Below, in pieces: positions 32,058-46,579 of a DNA stretch of 64,000 bases (position 1 is its first letter; each line of letters begins with the position of its first letter). The notes under the pieces were generated by a model. It was not told the origin of the DNA and searched no databases. It worked only from the letters and a program-made list of their open reading frames with translations. This DNA is from an uncultured Prevotella sp. (GTDB lineage: Bacteria; Bacteroidota; Bacteroidia; Bacteroidales; Bacteroidaceae), in the NCBI GenBank assembly GCA_946188165.1, contig CAMHTW010000006.1, positions 33,658-97,657 on the forward strand. Reading direction: 5' to 3'. The translations under genes were made by a program, and so were the position numbers.

Positions 32058-33035
32058 TCAGACATTTATGGAACCACAATGAGGGCAGGCTCCCTTCTGT
32101 TGTAGTGCGGCTCCACAGTTACCACAACGCAGAGAAGTGCGGGCATGTAGGACCCATCGCCTAAGGGCAAAGAAAATGTAGGCAGGAAGAAGAAAATAGC
32201 CAATATAGTATAGTGTCAGGATGCTAAATATAACATATAACACAGCGCAAACGGCACCAAGTCCGAAGAGGTAAAGAAGTGCATCAAAGGCCTGAAGACG
32301 ATGTATAGTATCGTCGACAGCAGCCACACCAACGATGATGATTGCCCATACGGAACTGACGAAAAGGCCAAGGGTAAAGGGAAGGTTGAAGGGATTGAGC
32401 GAAGGATGGAAATAGTAGTGTCGCCACTGCTCAGCACCGAAAGTCTGGATGGTGGCATAGGCTGTGGCGGAGCAGGCCATGAGAATACACAGCAGCGTGG
32501 GATAGAAGGAATCAATGTCGTTTAAATGCACAATATAGGCATTGCGTCGTAATAGTTTACGCATGGCATAGGCGCCACCTACGATAACACAAAAAGCCAG
32601 GAATACCAGCAGGTGGGTGTCAGAGAATACGTCGATGAATTGTGAAATGGGGTCATCAGGCGACACCGCATTCAGTAGTTCGCTCTCACGAATCCAGCCC
32701 TGAGTAATCTGGTCTCGAGCTACCTTTACCCATACAGAATCGATAGTATCCGTCGGAATAGTCTCAATATCAGCTACCACTATACGCTGTCCTTTCGTGA
32801 CATACATTGTATCGAAAGCCATATCGCCCTTACTATCAGCCAACGGCAACAACTCGGAGCGAACCAAGAAATTATAGTTCTGCGTGTAATGATGCGTCGT
32901 TGAGAAGGATATGGAGTCTATCTGCTGCTTGCTCAGGTCCCAGGCATCAGGTGTCTTCTGGCCGTGATTGTAGCACGCGCAGCACAAAACAGAAATCAGC
33001 AACCCTATGACAATCCTAACGAGACGCATACACAT
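32058..33035 (-). CDS. membrane protein with lipobox-like N-terminus, SH3-like segment and C-terminal zinc ribbon
   Basis: 325 residues. The N-terminus (IVIGLLISVLCCACYN) looks like a lipoprotein or signal segment. A periplasmic-looking part with an SH3-like stretch (DSVWVKVARDQITQGWIRESELL, about 100-123) follows, then about five membrane helices (about 135-290) and a terminal zinc ribbon CGNCGAALQQKGACPHCG. The ribbon resembles those in the kinase/AAA operon that runs into this gene. Start overlaps the U32 gene end by 20 bp. Function unknown; last gene of the long operon. Confidence 0.6.
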   Translation of the reverse strand: MCMRLVRIVIGLLISVLCCACYNHGQKTPDAWDLSKQQIDSISFSTTHHYTQNYNFLVRSELLPLADSKGDMAFDTMYVTKGQRIVVADIETIPTDTIDSVWVKVARDQITQGWIRESELLNAVSPDDPISQFIDVFSDTHLLVFLAFCVIVGGAYAMRKLLRRNAYIVHLNDIDSFYPTLLCILMACSATAYATIQTFGAEQWRHYYFHPSLNPFNLPFTLGLFVSSVWAIIIVGVAAVDDTIHRLQAFDALLYLFGLGAVCAVLYVIFSILTLYYIGYFLLPAYIFFALRRWVLHARTSLRCGNCGAALQQKGACPHCGSINV

Positions 33036-34818
33036 TCATTTGACAATTCTTACAATCAAACTCCAGACGGAACTGACGTCCATCAGCTAAACGAAGACTT
33101 AACGGTTCCTTCCATGCAGGATGCTTCCCACCATGTTTGACACAATAGCCCAGGGCATAACGCAGACAATGACGACATTGCATCACGGGGCCGTCCTCAC
33201 TTTTTATCTCATAAGCTGAAATGGCATCAGTATGATAGAAATCGCGCGAAAGGCGATTGGCGATGTTGTAAAGATAGGAATAGGCATAACGAGGAACAGG
33301 CTCATTGGAAGAAACACTGAGAACTGTGTGCCCAGCAGTATCGCTGCAGGGATTGCTGGGATTATTCAATGCCTCCACCAATAAACGGCGCAGTTCACTC
33401 AGTAAGCTATTGGGAATAAAATAATTGAAACCATCATCAAACGTCACCTCGCAGCATTCGTAAATCGTTCCTCCCAACTTAGACAACTGGCGTTGGATGT
33501 TTTCGTGCTGTAACTTGTTGGCAACTTGGTGCTCACAAGGCACAGAAACGCTAACGCCATTAGCTGACAAACAGAAGCCATCATCGGTAACCGACAGATG
33601 CATCGATATGGGCAGTTTGCGTTCGGATGTAGGACGTGACAACAAGCGTTCAAACTCCTGATCATAATTGCGATAGAGTGCCATACCTGAACGTAGATTA
33701 TTAGGCATCTGATAGGGGAACAAACGATTGCCTTGCGCACGATTGACACGGAAGCCCTCTAACTCATGGTCAGCATTGATAAAACACAAACCGTCGCCAT
33801 TAGCAAACGAAGCAGTACCTGCCACATTGAAAGAATCGTGGCGCAACTCCTTGACCGTACCAACAAATTCTCCCATAGCCTTGGGTGTGTCAGGAGAGAA
33901 AATATCTGGCTGCCGACCATGCAGAAAATAAGTGGTAAAGCCACGATTGAACGTCTTCTTCAGATTCGGCGTAAACGAATAAGACACCCTACCCTTGGAG
34001 GCACGACAATAAGCATCGGGATGCTTGGCAATAACAGCATCAAGACGCTGACTATAGGCTGCAACAACATTCTTGACATAGCTGGCATCCTTCAAACGGC
34101 CCTCTATCTTAAACGAGCAGGCACCAGCATCTATCAACTCTTCAAGATGTTGTAGTTGGTTCATATCTTTCAGAGACAGCAAATAACGTTGGTGTTCCAG
34201 TTCACGACCATCAGCATCGAGCATGTCGAACTTCATGCGACAAAACTGGGCACACTCGCCACGATTGGCTGAACGCTGGAAACAATGTTGTGACACATAG
34301 CACAAACCACTATAACTAACACAAAGGGCACCATGAACAAACACCTCTAATTCAACATCGGACACCTGACGATGAATCTCAGCAATCTCGTCGACAGATA
34401 ATTCACGCGCCAGCACGACCCTACGGAATCCTAAAGAGCGTAACCATCGGACCTTGTCAGCAGTACGATTGTCAGTCTGCGTCGAAGCATGCAATGCTAT
34501 AGGCGGCAACGACATCTTCAAGATACCCATATCCTGCACAAGGATTGCGTCAACCCCAGCATCATACAGTTGTTGGATGAGCAGCTGGGTAGCCTGTAGT
34601 TCATCATCATAAAGGATGGTATTGACAGTGACATAGACCCGTGCAGCAAACTGATGAGCATGCAGACACAACGTGCGGATATCCTCGACACTATTGCCTG
34701 CTGCAGCACGTGCACCAAAACGTGGAGCACCAATATAGACAGCATCGGCACCATGGTCAATAGCAGCTATACCACACTCCAGATTCTTGGCAGGAGCCAG
34801 CAGTTCCAATTGCGTCAT
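33016..34818 (-). CDS. U32 'peptidase' family protein (likely RNA hydroxylation factor)
   Basis: 600 residues. The N-terminal U32 domain has ELLAPAKNLECGIAAIDHGADAVYIG, the family signature EVFVHGALCVSYSGLCYVSQ and the conserved cysteines in SANRGECAQFC (about 175-200), followed by the long C-terminal domain of the family and a closing pair CRHCLR/CKNC. Although named peptidases, characterised U32 proteins (TrhP, RlhA) support prephenate-dependent hydroxylation of tRNA or 23S rRNA, probably with an iron-sulfur cluster. The Cys set here fits that. It starts 4 bp before the metA stop and is co-transcribed. Confidence 0.82.
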   Translation of the reverse strand: MTQLELLAPAKNLECGIAAIDHGADAVYIGAPRFGARAAAGNSVEDIRTLCLHAHQFAARVYVTVNTILYDDELQATQLLIQQLYDAGVDAILVQDMGILKMSLPPIALHASTQTDNRTADKVRWLRSLGFRRVVLARELSVDEIAEIHRQVSDVELEVFVHGALCVSYSGLCYVSQHCFQRSANRGECAQFCRMKFDMLDADGRELEHQRYLLSLKDMNQLQHLEELIDAGACSFKIEGRLKDASYVKNVVAAYSQRLDAVIAKHPDAYCRASKGRVSYSFTPNLKKTFNRGFTTYFLHGRQPDIFSPDTPKAMGEFVGTVKELRHDSFNVAGTASFANGDGLCFINADHELEGFRVNRAQGNRLFPYQMPNNLRSGMALYRNYDQEFERLLSRPTSERKLPISMHLSVTDDGFCLSANGVSVSVPCEHQVANKLQHENIQRQLSKLGGTIYECCEVTFDDGFNYFIPNSLLSELRRLLVEALNNPSNPCSDTAGHTVLSVSSNEPVPRYAYSYLYNIANRLSRDFYHTDAISAYEIKSEDGPVMQCRHCLRYALGYCVKHGGKHPAWKEPLSLRLADGRQFRLEFDCKNCQMNVYASR

Positions 34819-35732
34819 TTAATTTGATTAATATCGTAAGGTGTCTCCTGATAGACGTAATAATTTATCCAGTTGCTATACAGCAGGTTAGCATGAGCAC
34901 GCCACGTTACCAAAGGTGGCTGCGACGGGTCGTTGAAGCGATAATAGTTACGCGGAACATCAACATCCTTTCGTACATCCTTATCGCGGCGATACTCCTT
35001 ATCAAGGGTGTCAGGCGCATACTCCAAATGTCCGGTGATAAAAAACTCACGACCATTACGGGCCATTACAATGCTAACACCACTATCAGGTGACTCTGCT
35101 ATAAGCCGCAAATCAGTATTGGCTAGAATATCTTCGCGATGCAATTCTGTATGACGGCTGTGAGGCATCTGGAACACATCATCGAACCCACGGAAAATCG
35201 GCAGTAGCGGATCAAGTGTATGCTGCGGGAAAATACCGAACATCTTCTGGGGTAACGGGTACTTGGGTATACCATAGTGGTAGAAGAGACCAGCCTGAGC
35301 AGCCCAACATATATATAATGTACTCGTAACGTGCGTACGCGCCCACGCGAAGATTTCCTTCATTTCCTCCCAATAACCTACATCCTCGAACTCCAATTGC
35401 TCAACAGGCGCACCAGTAATAATCATGCCGTCATACTTCTCGGTACGCATCTCCTCGAAACTGCGGTAGAACATCATCATGTGCTCAATTGGTGTATTCT
35501 TGGGCGTATGGCTCTTCAACTTCATGAAACTGATTTCCAACTGCAAAGGCGTGTTCGACAAGAGACGTACCAAATCAGTCTCTGTTGTTATTTTCAGTGG
35601 CATCAAGTTGAGAATAACAATCTTCAAGGGACGGATATCCTGCATATGAGCACGAGTATAGTCCATCACAAAGATGTTCTCTTGCTTTAGCAACTCAATG
35701 GCAGGTAATCTGTCTGGTAATCTTAAAGGCAT
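34815..35732 (-). CDS. metA: homoserine O-acetyltransferase (MetA family)
   Basis: 305 residues, MetA/HTS family. The catalytic Cys is at 142 in STLYICWAAQ; the His and Glu of the triad are in ITGHLEYAPDTL. Residue 111, which is Gly in the succinyl-CoA-using E. coli enzyme and Glu in acetyl-CoA-using members, is Glu here (ITGAPVEQLEFEDV). I therefore name it an acetyltransferase, although databases usually label the family succinyltransferase. It would make O-acetylhomoserine for MetY (50672). It lies between the PP2C gene and the U32 gene in one transcript unit. Confidence 0.9.
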   Translation of the reverse strand: MPLRLPDRLPAIELLKQENIFVMDYTRAHMQDIRPLKIVILNLMPLKITTETDLVRLLSNTPLQLEISFMKLKSHTPKNTPIEHMMMFYRSFEEMRTEKYDGMIITGAPVEQLEFEDVGYWEEMKEIFAWARTHVTSTLYICWAAQAGLFYHYGIPKYPLPQKMFGIFPQHTLDPLLPIFRGFDDVFQMPHSRHTELHREDILANTDLRLIAESPDSGVSIVMARNGREFFITGHLEYAPDTLDKEYRRDKDVRKDVDVPRNYYRFNDPSQPPLVTWRAHANLLYSNWINYYVYQETPYDINQIK

Positions 35733-36551: not shown

Positions 36552-37148
36552 TTAATTCACGCTAACTTGCAAATTTATATTTGCAAGGGTTACGATGTCA
36601 CCCGACTTAATAGACATAGGTACATCTGGAAGAAGATCGCGTTGATTAAGCTTTGTTCCGTTAGACGAATGCTTATCGATGATGCACCATCCAGTATCAG
36701 GTTTGTATATGAGCTGGGCATGAACACCGGAAATGAACATGTTGCCTTCAAACAATTGCTGATATGGACCTTGCCGACGACCAATAACAGCTCCATTCAC
36801 ACCAACTATGCGGATATCAAGTGATGGGTTGTAGAGGGTCAGCGAAGGTATACCGCTCTTGGTTGCTACAGGTTGCTGGGGCACATCAGGCTCAGGTTCA
36901 CGCAAAGAAGCTTGTGTCACCTGATTGAACGAGAGATTGGCAGCATTTATAGAAGCAGACATGGAAACGGCACTGGCCTCCTTCTTTCCCAAATTATCAG
37001 GACTAACCATCAACCCACCGCAATGAGTACAACGGCGACCTTTACCAACACGTCCGCAGTTAGTACAATACGCCAACTCTTGGCCACACTGGTCACAAAA
37101 GTGCGATCTTTCTTCTATCTCTTCTTTACAATTCGGACAGATTATCAT
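36552..37148 (-). CDS. zinc-ribbon plus FHA domain phosphopeptide-binding protein
   Basis: 198 residues. The N-terminus has two zinc-ribbon-like Cys pairs of modules: CPNCKEEIEERSHFCDQCG and CTNCGRVGKGRRCTHCG. After a linker (about 55-100) comes an FHA domain (about 105-198) with the diagnostic GRRQGP, SGVHAQLIY (Ser-His) and DKHSSNGT. FHA domains bind phosphothreonine peptides, so this is the likely reader of the kinase's products. It overlaps the AAA+ gene stop by 4 bp (ATGA), implying balanced production of the two. Confidence 0.88.
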   Translation of the reverse strand: MIICPNCKEEIEERSHFCDQCGQELAYCTNCGRVGKGRRCTHCGGLMVSPDNLGKKEASAVSMSASINAANLSFNQVTQASLREPEPDVPQQPVATKSGIPSLTLYNPSLDIRIVGVNGAVIGRRQGPYQQLFEGNMFISGVHAQLIYKPDTGWCIIDKHSSNGTKLNQRDLLPDVPMSIKSGDIVTLANINLQVSVN

Positions 37149-40100
37149 ATATTCTCATTAATATCTTCTGGCATAATCATTTGATAAGTCTCTGGCGTTA
37201 CCTCCGACTGATTCATCTGGCTAACACGCATAGAAAGTTGCTGGATGGTCTGATCGAGCATGTTGCGCATCTCACGGGCGTTGCCGAAGGATTCTGACTT
37301 GTTGACCACAATACGACAGATAACATCCATCAGTTTGAATTCTGCCTCAGGCGACAGCTTGTAGTTGTCCTTCTGAGCCATCTTCTTGTAGATAGCCAAC
37401 AACTCGTCTTCATTATAGTCATCGATATGCATTTTGTGAGAGAAGCGGCTGGCCAAACCTGGATTGACAGCCAAGAAGGTTTCCATCTCATCCTTATAGC
37501 CGGCAGCAATCACCACAAACTTGCCACGATCATCCTCCATACGTTTCATCAGCGTATCGATAGCTTCCTTACCATACTGGTCATTCTCAGATGAAAGTGT
37601 GTAGGCCTCATCGATAAACAGGATACCACCCATAGCCTTGTCGCAAATGTTGTTGACAATCTTCGGTGTCTCACCCATATATTTACCAACCAACGTAGCA
37701 CGACTGGCCTCAATCACACGGCTGGTGGGAAGAATCTCCATAGCTTGCAAAATTTCACCCATCTTACGAGCAACAGACGTCTTACCTGTACCAGGATTAC
37801 CTGTCAGGATGAAGTTCATAGACATCTGCTGAACCTTACCGGCACCCATAGCAGCACGTTGCTTCATGAACATACTCTGTACTGCCAGACGACGAATCAT
37901 GTTCTTCACTGAACGCATACCGATAAACTCGTCGAGTTCGTTGAGGACCTCGTCGAGTGGACGAGCCTTCTCACTCTGAGCAACCTCAAGGTCAGCACTG
38001 GTAATACGATACATATCATCGTCCTTAAAGTCAGGATTACCCATCATGCTTACAAGACGTTGGCTCTGTTTCTCGACAGCCTGATCAAAGATCCTGCGTG
38101 CCTCACGGGCATTACCAAAGTTCTTGTCACGACGCAAATAAAGCTGCTCGAACTGACGATGAATAGTACCCTGAGTTTCTTCGTCCACAGTAAAGTTCTT
38201 ATCCTTACAGAGGTTGAGGAATATCTGCGTGAGTTCGTCGGGTGTGTAGTCGTCGAAGTGGATAGTTTGTGTGAAACGGCTCTTCAATCCAGGGTTAGAA
38301 TCGATAAAGTCATGCATGTTGTCAGTATAACCAGCAACAATACAAATGAACTTGCCACGATCATCCTCCAAACGCTTGAGCAAGGTATCGATGGCTTCAG
38401 CGCCAAACGAATCTTGATCATTAGACTTCAGTGTATAGGCCTCATCGATGAACAGCACACCACCCATAGCAGAATCAATCAACTGGTTGGTCTTGATGGC
38501 AGTCTGACCAGCAAAACCTGCAACCAGCTTAGAACGGTCTGCCTCTATCAACTGTCCACGTGAAAGAATGCCTAAAGTACGGAAGACATCTGCCATGATA
38601 CGAGCCACGGTAGTCTTACCTGTACCAGGATTACCAGAGAATACATAGTGCTTGCCCTGGAATGTATTGGTTTCTCCACGACGAATCTGAAGATTGAGGA
38701 AGGCTGCTAAGTTCGAAATTTCCTTCTTGACAGCAGCCAAGCCAACCATACCGTTGAGTTTGGCCAGACATTCTGTATAATCGACAGCCTTTGGAGCATC
38801 GTAAGGAATGTCAGCAACATCAATTGTCATCAACTGCTCGTTGCTGAGTGTAGATATGTCAACCTTTTGCATGCGCTCTGCCTGCTTGGTGCAAATCTTC
38901 TCAAACAACTGACGCATAGTGCGACCATTGGCAAAGTCCTTATCACGCGAATTATACAACTCGGTAATCATCTTCAGCGTCAACTCACGAGCCTCAGGTG
39001 TAAACTGATATTTCTTGTCGCTGGCAAACACTTCCATAATCTGGAACAGCTGATCGGGATTGTAGTCCTCGATATTCAGGAAATAACTGAAACGGCTGCG
39101 TACACCTGGATTGATTCTGAACAGGTTTTCCATCTCTGTGCGATAGCCTGCTGCAATGACAATAAACTTGCCTCGGTCGTCCTCCATGCGCTTCATCAGC
39201 GTTTCCAAAGCCTGTGTACCCTGCTGGTCACGTTCGCCACCACTACTGAGGGGCACCAAAGTATAAGCCTCGTCGACAAAGAGAATACCACCCATGGCCT
39301 TGTCACACAAACGGTCAACTACCTTAGGTGTCTCGCCCTGATACGGACTAATCATCTTAGAACGGTCTACCTCAACAACATGACCACTGTCCAGATATCC
39401 GATAGCCTCCATGATTTCACCTAACTTACGGGCTATGGTCGTCTTACCAGTACCAGGATTACCTGTCAGTACGATATGAATACCTGCCTTCTCCTGTTCG
39501 CCTAGTCCACGTTGTGCACGTTGTACATTGTTGTGAACAGTGAAAGCTATCTCGCGAACAGCCTTCTTCACCTCGTCCATACCAATATAATGGTCGAGAT
39601 CGCTCAAGATGTCCTCCAGCGTTCTTTCTACTGGTACATAACCACGAATATCGGTTTCCTCTATCATGGTGGCTTGAGAGCCACGGCTGATAAACGACGT
39701 AAAGATATCTTCGGCAGTTTTCACAGCCAAATGGGCATAACCAAAAGTATCGTCCTTGATTTTCACCTGATATTGGAAGAAACGCAACAACTTACGTTCT
39801 GCCTCAGGAGAAAAAGCGGAGAGTCCATATTTTGATTGTAGCTCCTGTTTACAGATATCACACAATTCCGTATAGCCTGGTGTTGGCAGACGGAACATAT
39901 ATTTGAAGCGGTTCTGTGCAGCAGGATTGGCAGACAGGAAATCGTCAAGTCCCTTGGGCAAACCAGCAATCATCACAATAGGATTCTCATCCCATTTGTC
40001 CATCTCAACAAATAGTTTGTCAAGTGGGTTTACTTGATTCGAATAACGATCTGGGAGAAGTTTCTGGACATTATCAAAGAACAGGATACCTCCTCTGGCA

Positions 40101-40462
40101 TTCTTGACGTTTTCATCCCATTTCTCGACGAAACGCTGATAGTCAACAGCATCAACCATCGTCAACTTAGGATTCTCAATAATCTTGTGCTGATAGAAGT
40201 AGTCGCGTATCACCTCTGCCAATGCCGTCTTACCTGTACCCGTCTCACCAATAATAATGGTATTCACGCTAAGGCGCACATTCATCACGTCCCTGCGCGA
40301 ATGGAGATAAGTATAAGTGTCAACAACTGTTTTCAGCTGCTGCTTTACCTCATCAAGCCCCACCATACGGTCAAGCACATTGAGGGATACAAGCTGGTGT
40401 CCACACCACTTACAGAACTTCGCTATCGAGCGGTTTTCTTTATGACATTGCTCACAAATCAT
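37145..40462 (-). CDS. AAA+ protein with four CbbX/SpoVK-like modules and an N-terminal zinc ribbon
   Basis: 1105 residues. A zinc ribbon (CEQCHKENRSIAKFCKWCG) opens the protein, then four AAA+ modules with Walker A at about 72 (GETGTGKTAL), 345 (GNPGTGKTTI), 607 (GNPGTGKTTV) and 885 (GNPGTGKTSV). Modules 2-4 have Walker B FVDEAYTL, FIDEAYTL and FIDEAYTL and are CbxX/CfqX-like, the group that includes Rubisco activase CbbX, SpoVK and EccA. Module 1 is diverged: its Walker B is FFDNVQKL, with Asn in place of the catalytic Glu. Cytosolic, probably a hexameric or pseudo-hexameric remodeller. It lies between kinase and FHA genes. Confidence 0.88.
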   Translation of the reverse strand: MICEQCHKENRSIAKFCKWCGHQLVSLNVLDRMVGLDEVKQQLKTVVDTYTYLHSRRDVMNVRLSVNTIIIGETGTGKTALAEVIRDYFYQHKIIENPKLTMVDAVDYQRFVEKWDENVKNARGGILFFDNVQKLLPDRYSNQVNPLDKLFVEMDKWDENPIVMIAGLPKGLDDFLSANPAAQNRFKYMFRLPTPGYTELCDICKQELQSKYGLSAFSPEAERKLLRFFQYQVKIKDDTFGYAHLAVKTAEDIFTSFISRGSQATMIEETDIRGYVPVERTLEDILSDLDHYIGMDEVKKAVREIAFTVHNNVQRAQRGLGEQEKAGIHIVLTGNPGTGKTTIARKLGEIMEAIGYLDSGHVVEVDRSKMISPYQGETPKVVDRLCDKAMGGILFVDEAYTLVPLSSGGERDQQGTQALETLMKRMEDDRGKFIVIAAGYRTEMENLFRINPGVRSRFSYFLNIEDYNPDQLFQIMEVFASDKKYQFTPEARELTLKMITELYNSRDKDFANGRTMRQLFEKICTKQAERMQKVDISTLSNEQLMTIDVADIPYDAPKAVDYTECLAKLNGMVGLAAVKKEISNLAAFLNLQIRRGETNTFQGKHYVFSGNPGTGKTTVARIMADVFRTLGILSRGQLIEADRSKLVAGFAGQTAIKTNQLIDSAMGGVLFIDEAYTLKSNDQDSFGAEAIDTLLKRLEDDRGKFICIVAGYTDNMHDFIDSNPGLKSRFTQTIHFDDYTPDELTQIFLNLCKDKNFTVDEETQGTIHRQFEQLYLRRDKNFGNAREARRIFDQAVEKQSQRLVSMMGNPDFKDDDMYRITSADLEVAQSEKARPLDEVLNELDEFIGMRSVKNMIRRLAVQSMFMKQRAAMGAGKVQQMSMNFILTGNPGTGKTSVARKMGEILQAMEILPTSRVIEASRATLVGKYMGETPKIVNNICDKAMGGILFIDEAYTLSSENDQYGKEAIDTLMKRMEDDRGKFVVIAAGYKDEMETFLAVNPGLASRFSHKMHIDDYNEDELLAIYKKMAQKDNYKLSPEAEFKLMDVICRIVVNKSESFGNAREMRNMLDQTIQQLSMRVSQMNQSEVTPETYQMIMPEDINENI

Positions 40463-40465
40463 AAC

Positions 40466-43400
40466 TTATTCTGCATCATTATCATTTTGTATCTGGTCGA
40501 CAACTTCTGTAGTCTGAACCTTAATCTTTTTGCCGATGTCAGACTTATTAATATTCAACAAGTTTGGACTGAAGACTACCAACTCAGCCACCAACATGCC
40601 CATCATCAAACTCCATAGAATATAGTGAATCACAGACTCACCACTGATAGAGCGAACCTGATTAGCCACGTCGTCAAGCAGGCCAAACTTAGAGCCTTTG
40701 AAACGGAATGACCTCTGCTTGAAAGTGAAATAGAGTGGTTCCAACAGTGTAGACTTGATATCATGGTCATCCATTACCTCACTTACCAACTGGCTGTCAC
40801 TCTTAGTCACGCTACGATAGTCTGTAAAGTGACATATTATAATATATATTAAGGTAATGACAACAATTGCTGGTACAAACATGCTGGGGAAAGATCCATT
40901 CACATAGCGTAATACCGTTACTGGTATCCATGCAGAAAGGTAACCTATCAATCCCCAAAGGCTGGAAATGAGGAAGCCATAGCCTCGGAAATATGCTCTG
41001 GAGGCTAAAATCAATGCGGTAGCTCCTCCCACTGGAACACCTATCGTCAGCATGGGATGCTGTAGAACATACTCTTTAGACGGTACGCCAAAGATCATTA
41101 CCAACAGCAACCATACAGCAGCTAATCCAAAGAACATGCCACGCCATAATTGTTCCTTACGCTTGGCCTGGAAGTAGCTTTGACGAACTTCCTGATACTT
41201 GTTGGCAGTTTGCTTACGAGCATCACAGAAGCGTTTGTAGAATTTATGATGAGCGTCTATCTCGCCTATCTCATTAATCCACTCCTCCAACTTATGCTCG
41301 TAGCTATATGTTTCCAGGAATTCATTATGAGGGTCTTCATGATAGAACACAGACATCCATTGGCACAAAGAGCCACGCTTGATGGCCGCCAACAACTGTG
41401 GTCTGTAAGCCAACTTATCTACAGTTTGGGGCGATTTCAATATAGTACCATCCTCCAACTGATACGAAGGAATAGCACCTAGAATACGACAGAAACGATA
41501 GGCAGCTGTACGCAAATCGTATGCGCCTAAACGTTCGCGATTCTCTTCACTCTTCAGGTCAAAGCAGGCACGTGCCTGACTGATCTGATCTATCCAACCA
41601 TGTAACTGAGCGAAATAGAAGAAACGTCCATTGGGGTCATTATAATCTGACACCTTCTCAGCAAATGCAATATCATCGAGCGACTGCCAACCAATGAGTT
41701 GACGAGCCATCACTTCGCCCACTTTATATGGTGTATCAGCATCGCGCAAATCATAAGCAGCCTCTCGATCCAGATTATAAAGCACCTTATAGGCCAACGA
41801 ACGTGTAGGCTTTTGTCCTTGTGTCATAATGCGCAAAGCCTCACAGGCCATAGCATCCTCACGACAATACATCCATGAAAGCAAACGACCATCAGTCAAA
41901 CTGTTCCATTCGTCATCACTACAGTTCTCGTAACCAAACGAATGGGTTATCTCTTCAACAGTAGAAGATGGAAATTTAGCCAAGAAAGGAATATCCCTGT
42001 CTATCTCGTATACCAATCGGAGCACAGCCACGCGCCCGTCATAGTTGGCATCAGCAGTAAAATAACTACGCAAGCGACTGACATCAGCTTTGCTGTGAGA
42101 TTCCAAATACAGGAATAAACGGTCGTTTGGATTAACCAACGATAGCGCATATTCCTCTTGATAACTTAAGACTGAAATAGCCAGACTGTGGATATCGTCA
42201 CATTTATTACCCTTAATATCCTCATAAGGATAGGTCGGTTCCATCATATAGATAGCAGACATCAGACCTGCCATCTGGTCAGCCGGATATCTGTTAACCA
42301 CAATATCCTTGACAGCCGAACTCAGTTTTACATTACCACACTGTTCCAGCCAACCAGCTATTCGTCCGTTATAAAGATAGCTGCACGACAGGCGTTCATT
42401 ATCAAGCAACAGCGGAATAAGTTCATGGACATTATCAGCAACCAGGTTGCGCTCAGGATCGACAACAAAGCTACGATACTTAAGCAAGGGCGACGTGACA
42501 TCAACACTCACATCCTCGCCCAAGAACCAGCGTTCCACTTCGTCATAGCCCCAGCGGCTCTGCGGATTGACGGCTGTCAGACCCATGACAATCATCTTGA
42601 CACGCTCAGGCAGTTCGTTGATACGAGGCAGACGACCTTCGTTCTTCTTACGCATCATGACACGCTCATTCTGGCTCAACGGATTCTCTCCCAACCAGAG
42701 TGTCATCAAGGTAATACCCAAGGAATAGAAATCGACAGCTGGTGTGATTTCCACCTCGCCATCAATCACGTCATTGTACATTTCAGGGGCAGCATACACA
42801 GGTGTACGAGCCTGAGTAGTACGATGCACCTTCTCGTCATTTTCCATCACACTTGAGATACCGAAGTCGCCTAGTACTATCTCTTTATGCTTCGTGTCAC
42901 GGAAGAAATAGTTACCAGGTTTGATATCCTTGTGAATCACATTGTTCTGATGACAGTAAGCCAAGGCTGCAGCAGCCTGCAATGCAATACGACGGAATTG
43001 GTTGAAGTCGCCGTCCAAGTCATAATCACTCAACGTACCACCGCGAAGATACTCCATCAGTTCATAATCGCGATTCTTTCCGTCAACATAAGTCTTACCA
43101 TAGTCTATAATCTTGACTATCATCTCCATGTTGAAGTTCTGAATGATACGCATCAGTGTCTTCTTAATCGTGAAGTTCGGATAGTATATCTTCAATACCT
43201 TCTCGCCTTCATTATTCGCAACAAGGAACACCTGTGCCTCACCAGAATTATCACTGATGCACCTGATACTACGATATGCTCTCCCCTTCAGGATGAAGTC
43301 GGTACCACCATCAGTCTCCATGTAGACAGCAGCAGTTCCTGGTTTTACTGTGGTCTCATTGTTCGCTGAGGAACCAGAAGTACGCTGAGGACTAACAACA

Positions 43401-43483
43401 CGGATAGTCGCAGACATATCTTGAGGTACTGCTGTTTGCTGGGGATTTGTGGCCGGATCGGGCTTACGTATGGTCTCGTCCAT
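40466..43483 (-). CDS. membrane-anchored Hanks-type Ser/Thr kinase with a long helical middle region
   Basis: 1005 residues. The kinase domain (about 75-330) has a lysine in VLKIYYP, catalytic loop VIHKDIKPGNYF, DFG (LGDFGISSV) and an APE block (YAAPEMY), so it should be active; HRD is replaced by HKD, a tolerated change. Residues about 335-790 are helical without a recognised domain. About five hydrophobic helices follow (about 795-990), for example AVWLLLVMIFGV and FVPAIVVITLIYIIICHF. Unlike PknB there are no extracellular PASTA repeats. The N-terminus is Thr/Ser-rich (NNETTVKPGTA), a plausible autophosphorylation site for the FHA partner. Confidence 0.88.
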   Translation of the reverse strand: MDETIRKPDPATNPQQTAVPQDMSATIRVVSPQRTSGSSANNETTVKPGTAAVYMETDGGTDFILKGRAYRSIRCISDNSGEAQVFLVANNEGEKVLKIYYPNFTIKKTLMRIIQNFNMEMIVKIIDYGKTYVDGKNRDYELMEYLRGGTLSDYDLDGDFNQFRRIALQAAAALAYCHQNNVIHKDIKPGNYFFRDTKHKEIVLGDFGISSVMENDEKVHRTTQARTPVYAAPEMYNDVIDGEVEITPAVDFYSLGITLMTLWLGENPLSQNERVMMRKKNEGRLPRINELPERVKMIVMGLTAVNPQSRWGYDEVERWFLGEDVSVDVTSPLLKYRSFVVDPERNLVADNVHELIPLLLDNERLSCSYLYNGRIAGWLEQCGNVKLSSAVKDIVVNRYPADQMAGLMSAIYMMEPTYPYEDIKGNKCDDIHSLAISVLSYQEEYALSLVNPNDRLFLYLESHSKADVSRLRSYFTADANYDGRVAVLRLVYEIDRDIPFLAKFPSSTVEEITHSFGYENCSDDEWNSLTDGRLLSWMYCREDAMACEALRIMTQGQKPTRSLAYKVLYNLDREAAYDLRDADTPYKVGEVMARQLIGWQSLDDIAFAEKVSDYNDPNGRFFYFAQLHGWIDQISQARACFDLKSEENRERLGAYDLRTAAYRFCRILGAIPSYQLEDGTILKSPQTVDKLAYRPQLLAAIKRGSLCQWMSVFYHEDPHNEFLETYSYEHKLEEWINEIGEIDAHHKFYKRFCDARKQTANKYQEVRQSYFQAKRKEQLWRGMFFGLAAVWLLLVMIFGVPSKEYVLQHPMLTIGVPVGGATALILASRAYFRGYGFLISSLWGLIGYLSAWIPVTVLRYVNGSFPSMFVPAIVVITLIYIIICHFTDYRSVTKSDSQLVSEVMDDHDIKSTLLEPLYFTFKQRSFRFKGSKFGLLDDVANQVRSISGESVIHYILWSLMMGMLVAELVVFSPNLLNINKSDIGKKIKVQTTEVVDQIQNDNDAE

Positions 43484-43485
43484 AT

Positions 43486-44433
43486 TTATTTATCATCTTT
43501 TATTTCCGCTGAACTATTCTTGCCTAACACAACCCATTTACCTCCAAGATGGGGCTTGGCACAACCACATGGGCTGCTGTGCATGGCATGCTTATAGTTG
43601 CACACCCATGCCAGCCTCACGCCTGTTGGCTTGCTGGCCATCGCATAATTGCGCGCCTTAACTGGAGATGATGAAGGGGGAACGGCCAATTTCTCAAGTA
43701 TGGCCGAAAGCATCTTGACTTTGACTGCTTTCTGGTCTTCCAACTCCTCCTTCGTCATTCTATTTGACTCTATCTTGGGAATAACAGGTATTTCAACACC
43801 TTCGTCTTGTTGCAACAAAGTGAGCACTCGCTCGCGTAATTTCTGACAATTCTGCTCACGAACGACATCACGTTCAGAAGTATACGGCAGAACGTTCTCC
43901 AGTTTCGAGTAGTCTTGCACGATTTCCATCAACTGCTGATAGTCCGGATTCTTCTCCAACTGCTTGACCATCTGTTTGGCCTCTTCCGTCAAGGCTGTAC
44001 CGCATTTCTTGCAGAAAGCAAAATCGTTGAGTGAGTGACAGGTGGGGCACACCAAACCGCCTCTGGGACTACCGCACTCAGGACAATAGGCTTCAATACC
44101 AGACAAATGAGAACCACAAAAAGAGCACACATCTTTGCGGATATAGTGGTGACAAACTTCACAGAAATCAGCATCAGCGTCAACTTCAGCACCACAATGA
44201 GGGCACGTCATCTTGCTGATAGGTTGTCCGCACTGTGCACAGAACAATGCCTCAAGTTCATTGATAGCTCCACAATAGGGGCATTCCTTGCCAGCAGCCT
44301 GCTGTTGCCTTTGCTGCTGCATCATTTGAGGAATCGGTTGCTCACTCATTTGCGGGCGTATTGTCCGCTGCAGCATTTCCTGCGGCCTTACCGTCCTCTC
44401 CATTGGTCCAAAATTAGAAATATTGTCGTTCAT
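43486..44433 (-). CDS. multi-zinc-ribbon protein heading the kinase/AAA operon
   Basis: 315 residues. A disordered N-terminus with repeated RTVRPQEM/RTIRPQM-type segments rich in Thr, then four to five zinc-ribbon modules in tandem (CPYCGAINELEALFCAQCG, CPHCGAEVDADADFCEVC, CSFCGSHLSGIEAYCPECG, CPTCHSLNDFAFCKKCG; about 50-170), a helical stretch (about 180-270) and a terminal Cys/His cluster (WVCNYKHAMHSSPCGCAKP). It has no enzyme motif. The TVRPQ-type repeats echo the kinase N-terminus and could be phosphoacceptors. It starts 26 bases after a clear promoter box and is 2 bp before the kinase gene. Confidence 0.8.
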   Translation of the reverse strand: MNDNISNFGPMERTVRPQEMLQRTIRPQMSEQPIPQMMQQQRQQQAAGKECPYCGAINELEALFCAQCGQPISKMTCPHCGAEVDADADFCEVCHHYIRKDVCSFCGSHLSGIEAYCPECGSPRGGLVCPTCHSLNDFAFCKKCGTALTEEAKQMVKQLEKNPDYQQLMEIVQDYSKLENVLPYTSERDVVREQNCQKLRERVLTLLQQDEGVEIPVIPKIESNRMTKEELEDQKAVKVKMLSAILEKLAVPPSSSPVKARNYAMASKPTGVRLAWVCNYKHAMHSSPCGCAKPHLGGKWVVLGKNSSAEIKDDK

Positions 44434-44551: not shown

Positions 44552-46579
44552 TTACCAAAGAGGCAATCGTTCTGCTTTTGGAACGAATAATTTATCACTT
44601 TCTTTCACACCAAAGGCTTCATACCACATGTCAATATGAGGCAACGCACCATTGACACGGTAACGTCCCAATGAGTGGGGGTCACTCTTCGTGCGATTAC
44701 GGATTTCAGCCTCTGTGATGTTACCTGCCCATACACCAGCGTATGCAATAAAAAAGCGCTGGTCGGCAGTCAACCCATCAATAACAGGTAAGGGGTTACG
44801 CTTGGTAGCATTCTTATAGGCATACCACGAAACCTGTAGACCACCATGGTCAGCCAGGTTCTCGCCAAGCGTCAGACGGCCATTGGCATTCAGGTCAGGC
44901 AACACTTTGATATTCGAGAAGAAATCAGCGAACTTATCTGTACGAGAAGTAAAATTCTTTCCATCCTCTTCCTTCCACCAGTCGTGCATGTTTCCATCCT
45001 TATCATACTGACGTCCCTGATCATCAAAACCATGCGTCATCTCATGTCCAATCACGACACCAATAGCACCATAGTTAAAGGCATCATCAGCCGTTGGGTC
45101 AAAGAACGGAACTTGCAGAATACCAGCAGGAAAACAGATTTCGTTCGTGGTAGGGTTATAGTAAGCGTTAACCGTCTGCGGCGTCATGTGCCAGTCGTCA
45201 CGGTCAACGGGTTTACCAGCTGTATGGTCTATATGCCACGCTGTCCAAAAGCGGCGGCACTCCATCATATTATCATAGTATGATTTTTTCGCATCAATCT
45301 TCAAGCCAGAAAGGTCTGTCCACTTGTCAGGATAACCAATCTTCACATAGAAGGTATTGAGTTTCAGCAGCGCATTCACCTTCGTAGAATCGTCCATCCA
45401 GTCCTGGGCAGCAATGCGCTCGCCTAAGGCAACGCGCAGGTTCTCGACCAGCGTCTTCATGCGCTCCTTAGAGGAAGCAGGGAAATACTTCTTCACGTAG
45501 ATGCGTCCCAAAGCCTCACCCATCACGCCTTGCACCTGATTGGTTGAACGGCGCCACAAAGGATGGTCTTCCTTCCTGCCTGAGAATATTTTACCGTAAA
45601 AATCAAAGTTAGCCTCACGGACGGCATCGTTCAAGTAACCTGTACAACCATCGATAATGCCCCACTCCATCACGTCACGGAACTCGGCGGGAGTCATGGT
45701 CGAGAACAGCTTGTCGGCAGCCTCCATAAAGGCGGGCTGGCCAACGACCATCTCCTGAATATACTGGCTCTTGACACCTTTGGCATTCATCTGGCGCTCC
45801 AACATCAGGTGAGGATAATTCGCATCGAACTCCTTCAGGGTCATCTTGTTATAGTTGGCCTGCGGGTCACGCAGTTCCGTATTCGACTTCGATGCTTTAG
45901 CCAAGGCCACCTCCACCTTCATGATGTTCTTCATCTTCTTCTCGGCCACGCTCTTCTTGAAGCCAAACAGTTGAAACATACGGACAATATGCTTCTTGTA
46001 TGCCTCACGAATCTTGGTGGTAGCCTCGTCGGTCTCCACATAATAGTCTTTCTGCCCCAAGGTCAGTCCCCCCTGCGAGATGTTAAGGATATTGTTCGTG
46101 GCATTCTTCTCGTCAGCACCGATATACGTACCAAACAGCTGTGATTCGCCATAAGACATCAGCTCCAACTGGATGTCGAACAACTGGTCCTTGGTCTTGG
46201 CAGCCTCCATTTTCTTAATGAGAGGCATCACCGGTGCCAGACCATCCTGCTCACGACGGGCAGAATCCATTGCCAGTTTATAGAGGTCGCTCAGTTTCTG
46301 TTCGACGGTACCGGCAGGATAGGTATTTTCCTGCAGTTCCTTCAAGATGCTGTTAATGCGCTTGTTATTATCTTCGGCCAAGCGGTCGAAACTGCCAAAG
46401 CGTGAATAGGCAGCAGGCAGCGGATTGGCTTTCATCCATCCGCCACAGGCATACTCGTAGAAGTCGTCGCCAGGGCGCACACTCTTGTCGAGGTCGTTCA
46501 TGTTGATGCCCGACTTCAACTGTGCCGATGCAGTGACTACTGTCACTGCTAATGCCATCATAGTCAGTAATTTCTTCAT
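44552..46579 (-). CDS. pepO: M13-family (neprilysin/PepO-like) zinc endopeptidase
   Basis: 675 residues with a signal peptide (LLTMMALAVTVVTASAQ), so it works in the periplasm or outside. The zinc site is intact: VIGHEMTHGFDD (HExxH) and GENLADHGG (third ligand Glu), as is NAYYNPTTNEICFPAGILQ for substrate binding and the closing CxxW-like aromatic C-terminus (ERLPLW). Normal M13 length. It lies 14 bp after the ABC-F gene, with no promoter box between, and is followed by a terminator. Confidence 0.93.
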   Translation of the reverse strand: MKKLLTMMALAVTVVTASAQLKSGINMNDLDKSVRPGDDFYEYACGGWMKANPLPAAYSRFGSFDRLAEDNNKRINSILKELQENTYPAGTVEQKLSDLYKLAMDSARREQDGLAPVMPLIKKMEAAKTKDQLFDIQLELMSYGESQLFGTYIGADEKNATNNILNISQGGLTLGQKDYYVETDEATTKIREAYKKHIVRMFQLFGFKKSVAEKKMKNIMKVEVALAKASKSNTELRDPQANYNKMTLKEFDANYPHLMLERQMNAKGVKSQYIQEMVVGQPAFMEAADKLFSTMTPAEFRDVMEWGIIDGCTGYLNDAVREANFDFYGKIFSGRKEDHPLWRRSTNQVQGVMGEALGRIYVKKYFPASSKERMKTLVENLRVALGERIAAQDWMDDSTKVNALLKLNTFYVKIGYPDKWTDLSGLKIDAKKSYYDNMMECRRFWTAWHIDHTAGKPVDRDDWHMTPQTVNAYYNPTTNEICFPAGILQVPFFDPTADDAFNYGAIGVVIGHEMTHGFDDQGRQYDKDGNMHDWWKEEDGKNFTSRTDKFADFFSNIKVLPDLNANGRLTLGENLADHGGLQVSWYAYKNATKRNPLPVIDGLTADQRFFIAYAGVWAGNITEAEIRNRTKSDPHSLGRYRVNGALPHIDMWYEAFGVKESDKLFVPKAERLPLW

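Follow-up and report, generated by a model that had tools for sequence, protein, structure and literature searches.

The linker of the human kinase MST2 carries seven autophosphorylated Thr-Met sites, and the FHA domain of SLMAP prefers the sequence E/D-G-pT-M-x-R/K, in which pT is phosphothreonine (pThr) (PMC5663475). In Actinobacteria, GarA and OdhI carry a Thr motif that Ser/Thr kinases phosphorylate and that the protein's own FHA domain binds (PMC2784874, PMC6733907). The FHA domains of OdhI and of DgcB from Bdellovibrio bind tail motifs with Glu at position -2 relative to the Thr, and the GarA, OdhI and DgcB motifs have Ser at +1 and hydrophobic residues at +2 and +3 (PMC6733907). In the type VI secretion pathway PpkA-TssL-Fha, a kinase-dependent pThr recruits an FHA protein (PMC3953482). 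Here, we compare with these systems a five-gene operon located in a window of 64,000 nucleotides from an uncultured Prevotella sp. (contig CAMHTW010000006.1, positions 33,658 to 97,657). The genes lie on the same strand in the order zinc-ribbon protein, Ser/Thr kinase, triple-AAA ATPase, zinc ribbon-FHA protein and PP2C phosphatase (Table 1). We consider it probable that the N-terminal tail of the kinase is a multi-site pThr docking platform, which would be read by the FHA domain of the same operon.

A sequence-only reading of positions 40466-44433 had singled out Thr-rich segments in the zinc-ribbon protein and in the kinase N terminus as candidate phosphosites, had likened them to the ETTV-type sites bound by GarA-like proteins, and had proposed that they directly link kinase, FHA reader and zinc-ribbon protein. 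The FHA protein itself (36552-37148) lies outside that span. The segments read exactly as described, on the minus strand: DETIRKPDPATN, SATIRVVS and NETTVKPG in the kinase, and ERTVRPQEM and QRTIRPQM in the zinc-ribbon protein. The T-[VI]-R/K-P pattern for which conservation was to be sought is indeed kept in kinase homologues across species, families and classes, and it is Thr specific.

Among 45 non-redundant Bacteroidota kinase tails, we counted 111 occurrences of T-[VILM]-[RK] (T-phi-[RK]), compared to 6.8 +/- 2.4 in shuffled tails, which keep composition and do not model descent. With an acid at -2 ([DE]-x-T-[VILM]-[RK]), 77 occurrences were observed versus 1.1 after shuffling. The Ser version was not enriched (2 observed, 5.2 expected; Fisher P of 3e-26 for Thr versus Ser, a calculation that ignores relatedness), and the reversed letter order occurred once. 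A smaller set of 36 non-redundant tails gave 90 occurrences versus 5.5 shuffled; the three residue classes in other orders occurred 0 to 31 times in this set, the value of 31 belonging to [RK]-T-phi, which overlaps the motif. T-phi-[RK] is present in 38 of the 45 tails, with at least two copies in 34 of them and a copy number of mostly 2 to 6. Over the full set, the strict motif was found 73 times in the first 130 kinase residues versus 3 times in 31,632 amino acids of kinase body. The consensus is D/E-x-T-[IVLM]-R, frequently followed by Pro, in tails that are otherwise hard to align, as illustrated by DDDKTIRP..DDEKTIRP..DDDKTIRS..DDESTIRS in locus L095, repeated DKTLKP in L100 and repeated TMRP in L133. 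From its composition and poor alignability, the tail appears to be disordered; an AlphaFold model of kinase residues 1-349 (16 sequences) had a mean pLDDT of 35.6 and was unusable even for the kinase domain.

In 14 alignable orthologues, conservation was 0.81 at motif positions versus 0.39 elsewhere in the tail (Mann-Whitney P of 0.0005). Across tails, the motif persists although spacers, copy number and position change. Its codons vary synonymously, with all four Thr and all six Arg codons in use, indicating that selection acts on the protein and ruling out a nucleotide-level cause of the motif. These statistics do not take descent into account; the case is carried by the persistence despite changes in spacers and copy number, together with recurrence across classes. 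The likeness to ETTV sites did not hold, since Thr45 is fully conserved (1.0) and Thr44 is not (0.31); the site in ETTVKPG is thus T-V-K-P, which another Thr happens to precede. The pattern here, D/E-x-T-[IVLM]-[RK]-P, is not of the GarA/OdhI ETT type with its Ser at +1 and hydrophobic residues at +2 and +3.

The tails show further elements. In loci L095, L097, L098, L099, L121 and L122, a second element, [IV]-I-[SP]-[AS], stands 6 to 9 residues past many T-phi-R motifs (TVRAGSGVISADA). The tails of L124 and L145 keep IISS and have lost T-phi-R. Lineage-specific rewrites of the tail repeat were also seen, namely, repeated SGT[QK]RP (L143), copies of DGTD[VT][LM]P (L144) and copies of ATG[KR]AVRGNDD (L101 and L102).

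The FHA domain of the operon has an intact pThr pocket. Arg124, Ser140, His143 and Asn168 are invariant in 31 homologues, and Asn163 is kept in 30 of the 31. Moreover, the top Foldseek matches of the protein model were FHA structures (AlphaFold pLDDT of 58.5, suitable for fold recognition only). The strongest of the new evidence is that, in several other lineages, the motif is found within the FHA protein. Six readers (L095, L097, L098, L099, L121 and L122) terminate in [DE]-x-T-[IV]-R-[VIL]-COOH, the C termini seen being EKTIRV, DATVRV, DKTVRI, EKTVRI, DRTVRL and EKTVRL. The linkers of L103 and L104 carry NATIRPS and ESTVRVD, and the reader of L143 has SSTLRG. The strict motif occurs 7 times in the flexible regions of 36 non-redundant readers versus 0.18 times after shuffling, and 0 of 1000 shuffles reached 7. 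In one genus (two loci, L101 and L102), the reader has DKTVGG or DKTIGG and the kinase tail starts with DDHKTVGN, both forms having changed together. Since the same tag occurs in the kinase tail and in the neighboring FHA protein of several lineages, we propose that the kinase tags its own tail to recruit the reader. The kinase-reader part of the earlier proposal is supported in that the motif neighbors an FHA protein whose pThr pocket is intact and recurs, in several lineages, in that protein itself; the reader of the window has only a Ser version.

By analogy, human MST2-SLMAP (STRIPAK, Hippo) would be the best functional parallel. Both systems combine several Thr-hydrophobic sites in a flexible kinase segment with an FHA partner, an acid at -2, a hydrophobic residue at +1 and a phosphatase in the module, phosphorylation and reading being predicted here. 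In contrast to the operon, MST2-SLMAP is eukaryotic, its segment follows the kinase domain on the C-terminal side, +3 instead of +2 is the basic position, and the phosphatase is PP2A instead of PP2C; homology is limited to the kinase and FHA domains. GarA and OdhI share with our loci a Thr motif located in a flexible stretch of the FHA protein (here, in the readers of other lineages) and an acid near the Thr (PMC2784874, PMC6733907), whereas our motif resides chiefly in the tail of the kinase, with a hydrophobic residue at +1 and Arg at +2. The FHA protein of the window has the intact pocket of that type and QASLREP in place of a Thr motif. DgcB, whose FHA domain is bound by the motif EKpTSIV of its own tail (PMC6733907), has E-K-T in common with reader C termini such as EKTVRI; its tail is N-terminal, its output is a GGDEF domain, and no comparable kinase operon is described for it. 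In PpkA-TssL-Fha, the pThr lies on TssL and not on a kinase-tail array, and we saw no secretion genes adjoining the operon.

In the mechanism that we propose, the membrane-anchored kinase would phosphorylate its own N-terminal tail in the cytosol, at 2 to 6 D/E-x-T-phi-R motifs; clustered kinases would probably do so in trans. The FHA adaptor would dock on the phosphorylated motifs, and its zinc ribbons would draw the AAA ATPase and the zinc-ribbon partner, the putative effector side, to the membrane. PP2C would erase the phospho-marks and so reset the system. In readers that bear the motif, their own phosphorylated copy could lead to binding to self or to another reader, as for GarA, OdhI and DgcB. 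We infer phosphorylation, FHA binding, assembly, effector steps and reset alike from comparison of sequences. A bolder claim is that D/E-x-pT-[IVLM]-R is a previously undescribed bacterial docking code, in which a multivalent, self-marked kinase array recruits an adaptor with FHA domain and zinc ribbons along with a triple-AAA ATPase, tail and reader spelling drift together, and the whole is an independently evolved counterpart of MST2-SLMAP; we would give this claim an even chance.

Several observations weigh against a tail that is read by the FHA domain. None of the FHA ligands that we compared from the literature features Arg at +2. In the reader, Gly141 stands at the equivalent of SLMAP Arg53 (shared S-x-x-H spacing), leaving the reading of the acid at -2 unexplained. 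The window's own reader has Ser instead of Thr in its linker motif, and FHA domains normally require pThr; close relatives keep this Ser version (QASIREP, SASMREP and QHSLRAP), the count of which in readers overall is not above chance. Moreover, T-phi-[RK] is missing from 7 of the 45 tails, though several of these loci encode an FHA protein (L104, L124, L127 and L129), and the motif of the zinc-ribbon protein is absent in distant loci.

The alternative that survives best, which we nevertheless regard as unlikely, is that the motif is only the preferred (auto)phosphorylation sequence of the kinase, so that tail phosphorylation directly tunes activity or clustering and the ligand of the FHA domain lies elsewhere. 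A kinase consensus would also fit the Thr specificity and the acid at -2, and it is the kinase itself that has the cleanest motif. However, the motif is also found at the C terminus or in the linker of readers in other lineages, and it changed jointly in L101 and L102; the reader could still be another substrate. Less probable still is that the tail works as a short linear motif needing no phosphorylation, its partner being the AAA ATPase, the zinc ribbons or something else, and that the Thr is kept for contact. The coconservation of Arg and Pro, both common in unmodified docking motifs, and the companion element [IV]-I-S-[AS] in distant kinases would agree with this, but Ser is excluded from the motif, yet makes up about 40% of the Ser and Thr residues of the tails, and a kinase, a pThr reader and a phosphatase are all encoded by the operon. 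Finally, a functionless low-complexity tail with local duplications, conserved by relatedness, is very improbable: some copies are plainly recent duplications (L133, SQDMTMRPASQDMTMR) and the shuffles leave descent unmodeled, but the motif outlasts its spacers at twofold higher conservation, with synonymous codon turnover, and it recurs in several classes as well as in a protein other than the kinase.

Enrichment of the motif throughout a genome would point to substrates outside the operon. In the Prevotella genome itself, the [DE]xT-phi-RP DNA pattern occurred 35 times versus 38 for the control, that is, with no genome-wide enrichment, and four distant genomes likewise showed no excess of the DKT[IV]R pattern. 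In-frame terminal DKT[IV]R matches were found in kinase and reader only, the rest being mid-protein (30 loci, a part of all matches). Within this partial sampling of matches, the result fits a closed circuit within the operon.

For the zinc-ribbon protein, the third partner of the proposed link, the case is weaker. Its tails contain T-x-[RK]-P 16 times versus 0.5 shuffled, with no Ser version (0), and the looser [DEQ]-x-T-x-[RKN]-[PG] 26 times versus 0.5. This enrichment concerns Prevotella-type loci, in which the spelling loosens to T-x-[RN]-[PG], position +1 is free, and the motif is lost in some Prevotella (L038 and L041). These tails align with each other more easily than kinase tails do. 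The motif may be a Prevotella-specific extra, and its TxRP sites would likely be additional substrates or docking sites.

To our knowledge, physiological ligands have been established for few FHA proteins of bacteria. For an uncharacterized Bacteroidota signaling operon, sequence comparison by itself leads here to a prediction of the reader, its ligand and the precise Thr residues. If the prediction is true, bacteria have a multi-site kinase-tail switch comparable to that of human Hippo signaling, and a way is opened into an operon whose purpose is unknown and which occurs in rumen Prevotella and, scattered, in other Bacteroidota. In the open-access literature searched, coverage of which was incomplete, we found no description of a multi-copy Thr motif in a kinase tail common to a linked reader, or of such an operon. 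The operon is a variation on kinase-FHA-phosphatase signaling, a known kind.

We then compared the operon with defined families. Scores stayed below the curated cut-offs for the Stk1/PknB PASTA kinase (NF033483, 73.8 versus 450 bits), the Stp1/IreP PP2C (NF033484, 157.8 versus 230 bits), the type VI secretion TagH FHA protein (TIGR03354, 27.4 versus 120.25 bits) and the MADS antiphage kinase MAD6 (NF047741, 79.4 versus 460 bits). The SpoVK, CbbX and EccA AAA models scored 796, 638.5 and 712 bits, above their cut-offs, but each score adds up several AAA copies of a single chain and is thus no safe sign of equivalog membership. We rejected an antiphage-system label from PADLOC, the matches being to generic kinase and AAA domains and the kinase match spanning the kinase domain only. 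The operon as a whole belongs to no tested family; its domains are of known kinds.

A protein search of GTDB contigs yielded 23 loci, all in Prevotella or Prevotellaceae and several titled as ruminant samples; most have all five genes in unchanged order. Whole-genome searches added remoter relatives in the same family, the same order and other classes of Bacteroidota. The distribution is patchy: at the chosen thresholds, the kinase is present in 12 of the 151 genomes of the family and in 7 of the 396 of the phylum. Cultured rumen Prevotella strains such as tc2-28 and khp7 (L043 and L044) carry the operon. Where the flanking sequence suffices, the order zinc ribbon-kinase-AAA-FHA-PP2C is retained in distant families and classes, with occasional gene losses or insertions in distant loci (L123, L124 and L126).

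Table 1. Features of the kinase-FHA operon, in positions of the window
Feature	Positions	Strand	Basis or remark
Zinc-ribbon protein, 315 aa	43486-44433	minus	Pfam DZR and Zn_Ribbon_1
Zinc-ribbon tail motif ERTVRPQ, residues 12-18, Thr14	44380-44400	minus	Prevotella-type loci only
Zinc-ribbon tail motif QRTIRPQ, residues 22-28, Thr24	44350-44370	minus	Closer relatives only
Ser/Thr kinase, 1005 aa	40466-43483	minus	Pfam Pkinase, 110.5 bits
Kinase N-terminal tail, residues 1-62, three T-phi-[RK] motifs	43298-43483	minus	Translation, homologous tails
Kinase motif 1, DETIRKP, residues 2-8, Thr4	43460-43480	minus	Thr4 0.92 and Arg6 0.92 conserved (13 orthologues)
Kinase motif 2, SATIRVV, residues 24-30, Thr26	43394-43414	minus	Thr26, Arg28 and Val29 invariant (16-row alignment)
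Kinase motif 3, ETTVKPG, residues 43-49, Thr45	43337-43357	minus	Thr45 invariant (16-row alignment), Thr44 not
AAA ATPase, 1105 aa, CbbX/SpoVK type, N-terminal zinc ribbon	37145-40462	minus	Pfam AAA, 4 stretches; AAA_lid_6, 3 stretches; TIGR02881, 796 bits
Zinc ribbon and FHA protein, 198 aa, proposed reader	36552-37148	minus	Pfam FHA, 45.8 bits
Reader linker QASLREP, residues 79-85, Ser version of motif	36894-36914	minus	Significance doubtful
FHA domain	36585-36788	minus	pThr-pocket residues conserved in homologues
PP2C phosphatase, 248 aa	35768-36514	minus	Pfam PP2C_2, 47.7 bits

The catalytic residues of the kinase (Lys98, HKD 184-186 and DFG 206-208) are invariant, and its C-terminal part contains several hydrophobic segments, the membrane nature of which was judged by eye. 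The AAA ATPase has several CbbX/SpoVK-type AAA units per chain, the first of which seems divergent, and its length varies by lineage from about 830 to 1390 amino acids. The genome encodes 2 kinase-domain and 2 FHA-domain proteins above family cut-offs, one of each inside the operon. The second FHA protein (L055:8454-9005, G000 contig C9) has its own N-terminal zinc-binding-like segment; its neighbors are a protein with a SPOR-like C terminus and an HtpG-like gene, with no kinase nearby. The genes at 33016-35732 and 44552-46579 (homoserine succinyltransferase-like, U32 peptidase-like and M13 peptidase-like) flank the operon in other Prevotella loci too.

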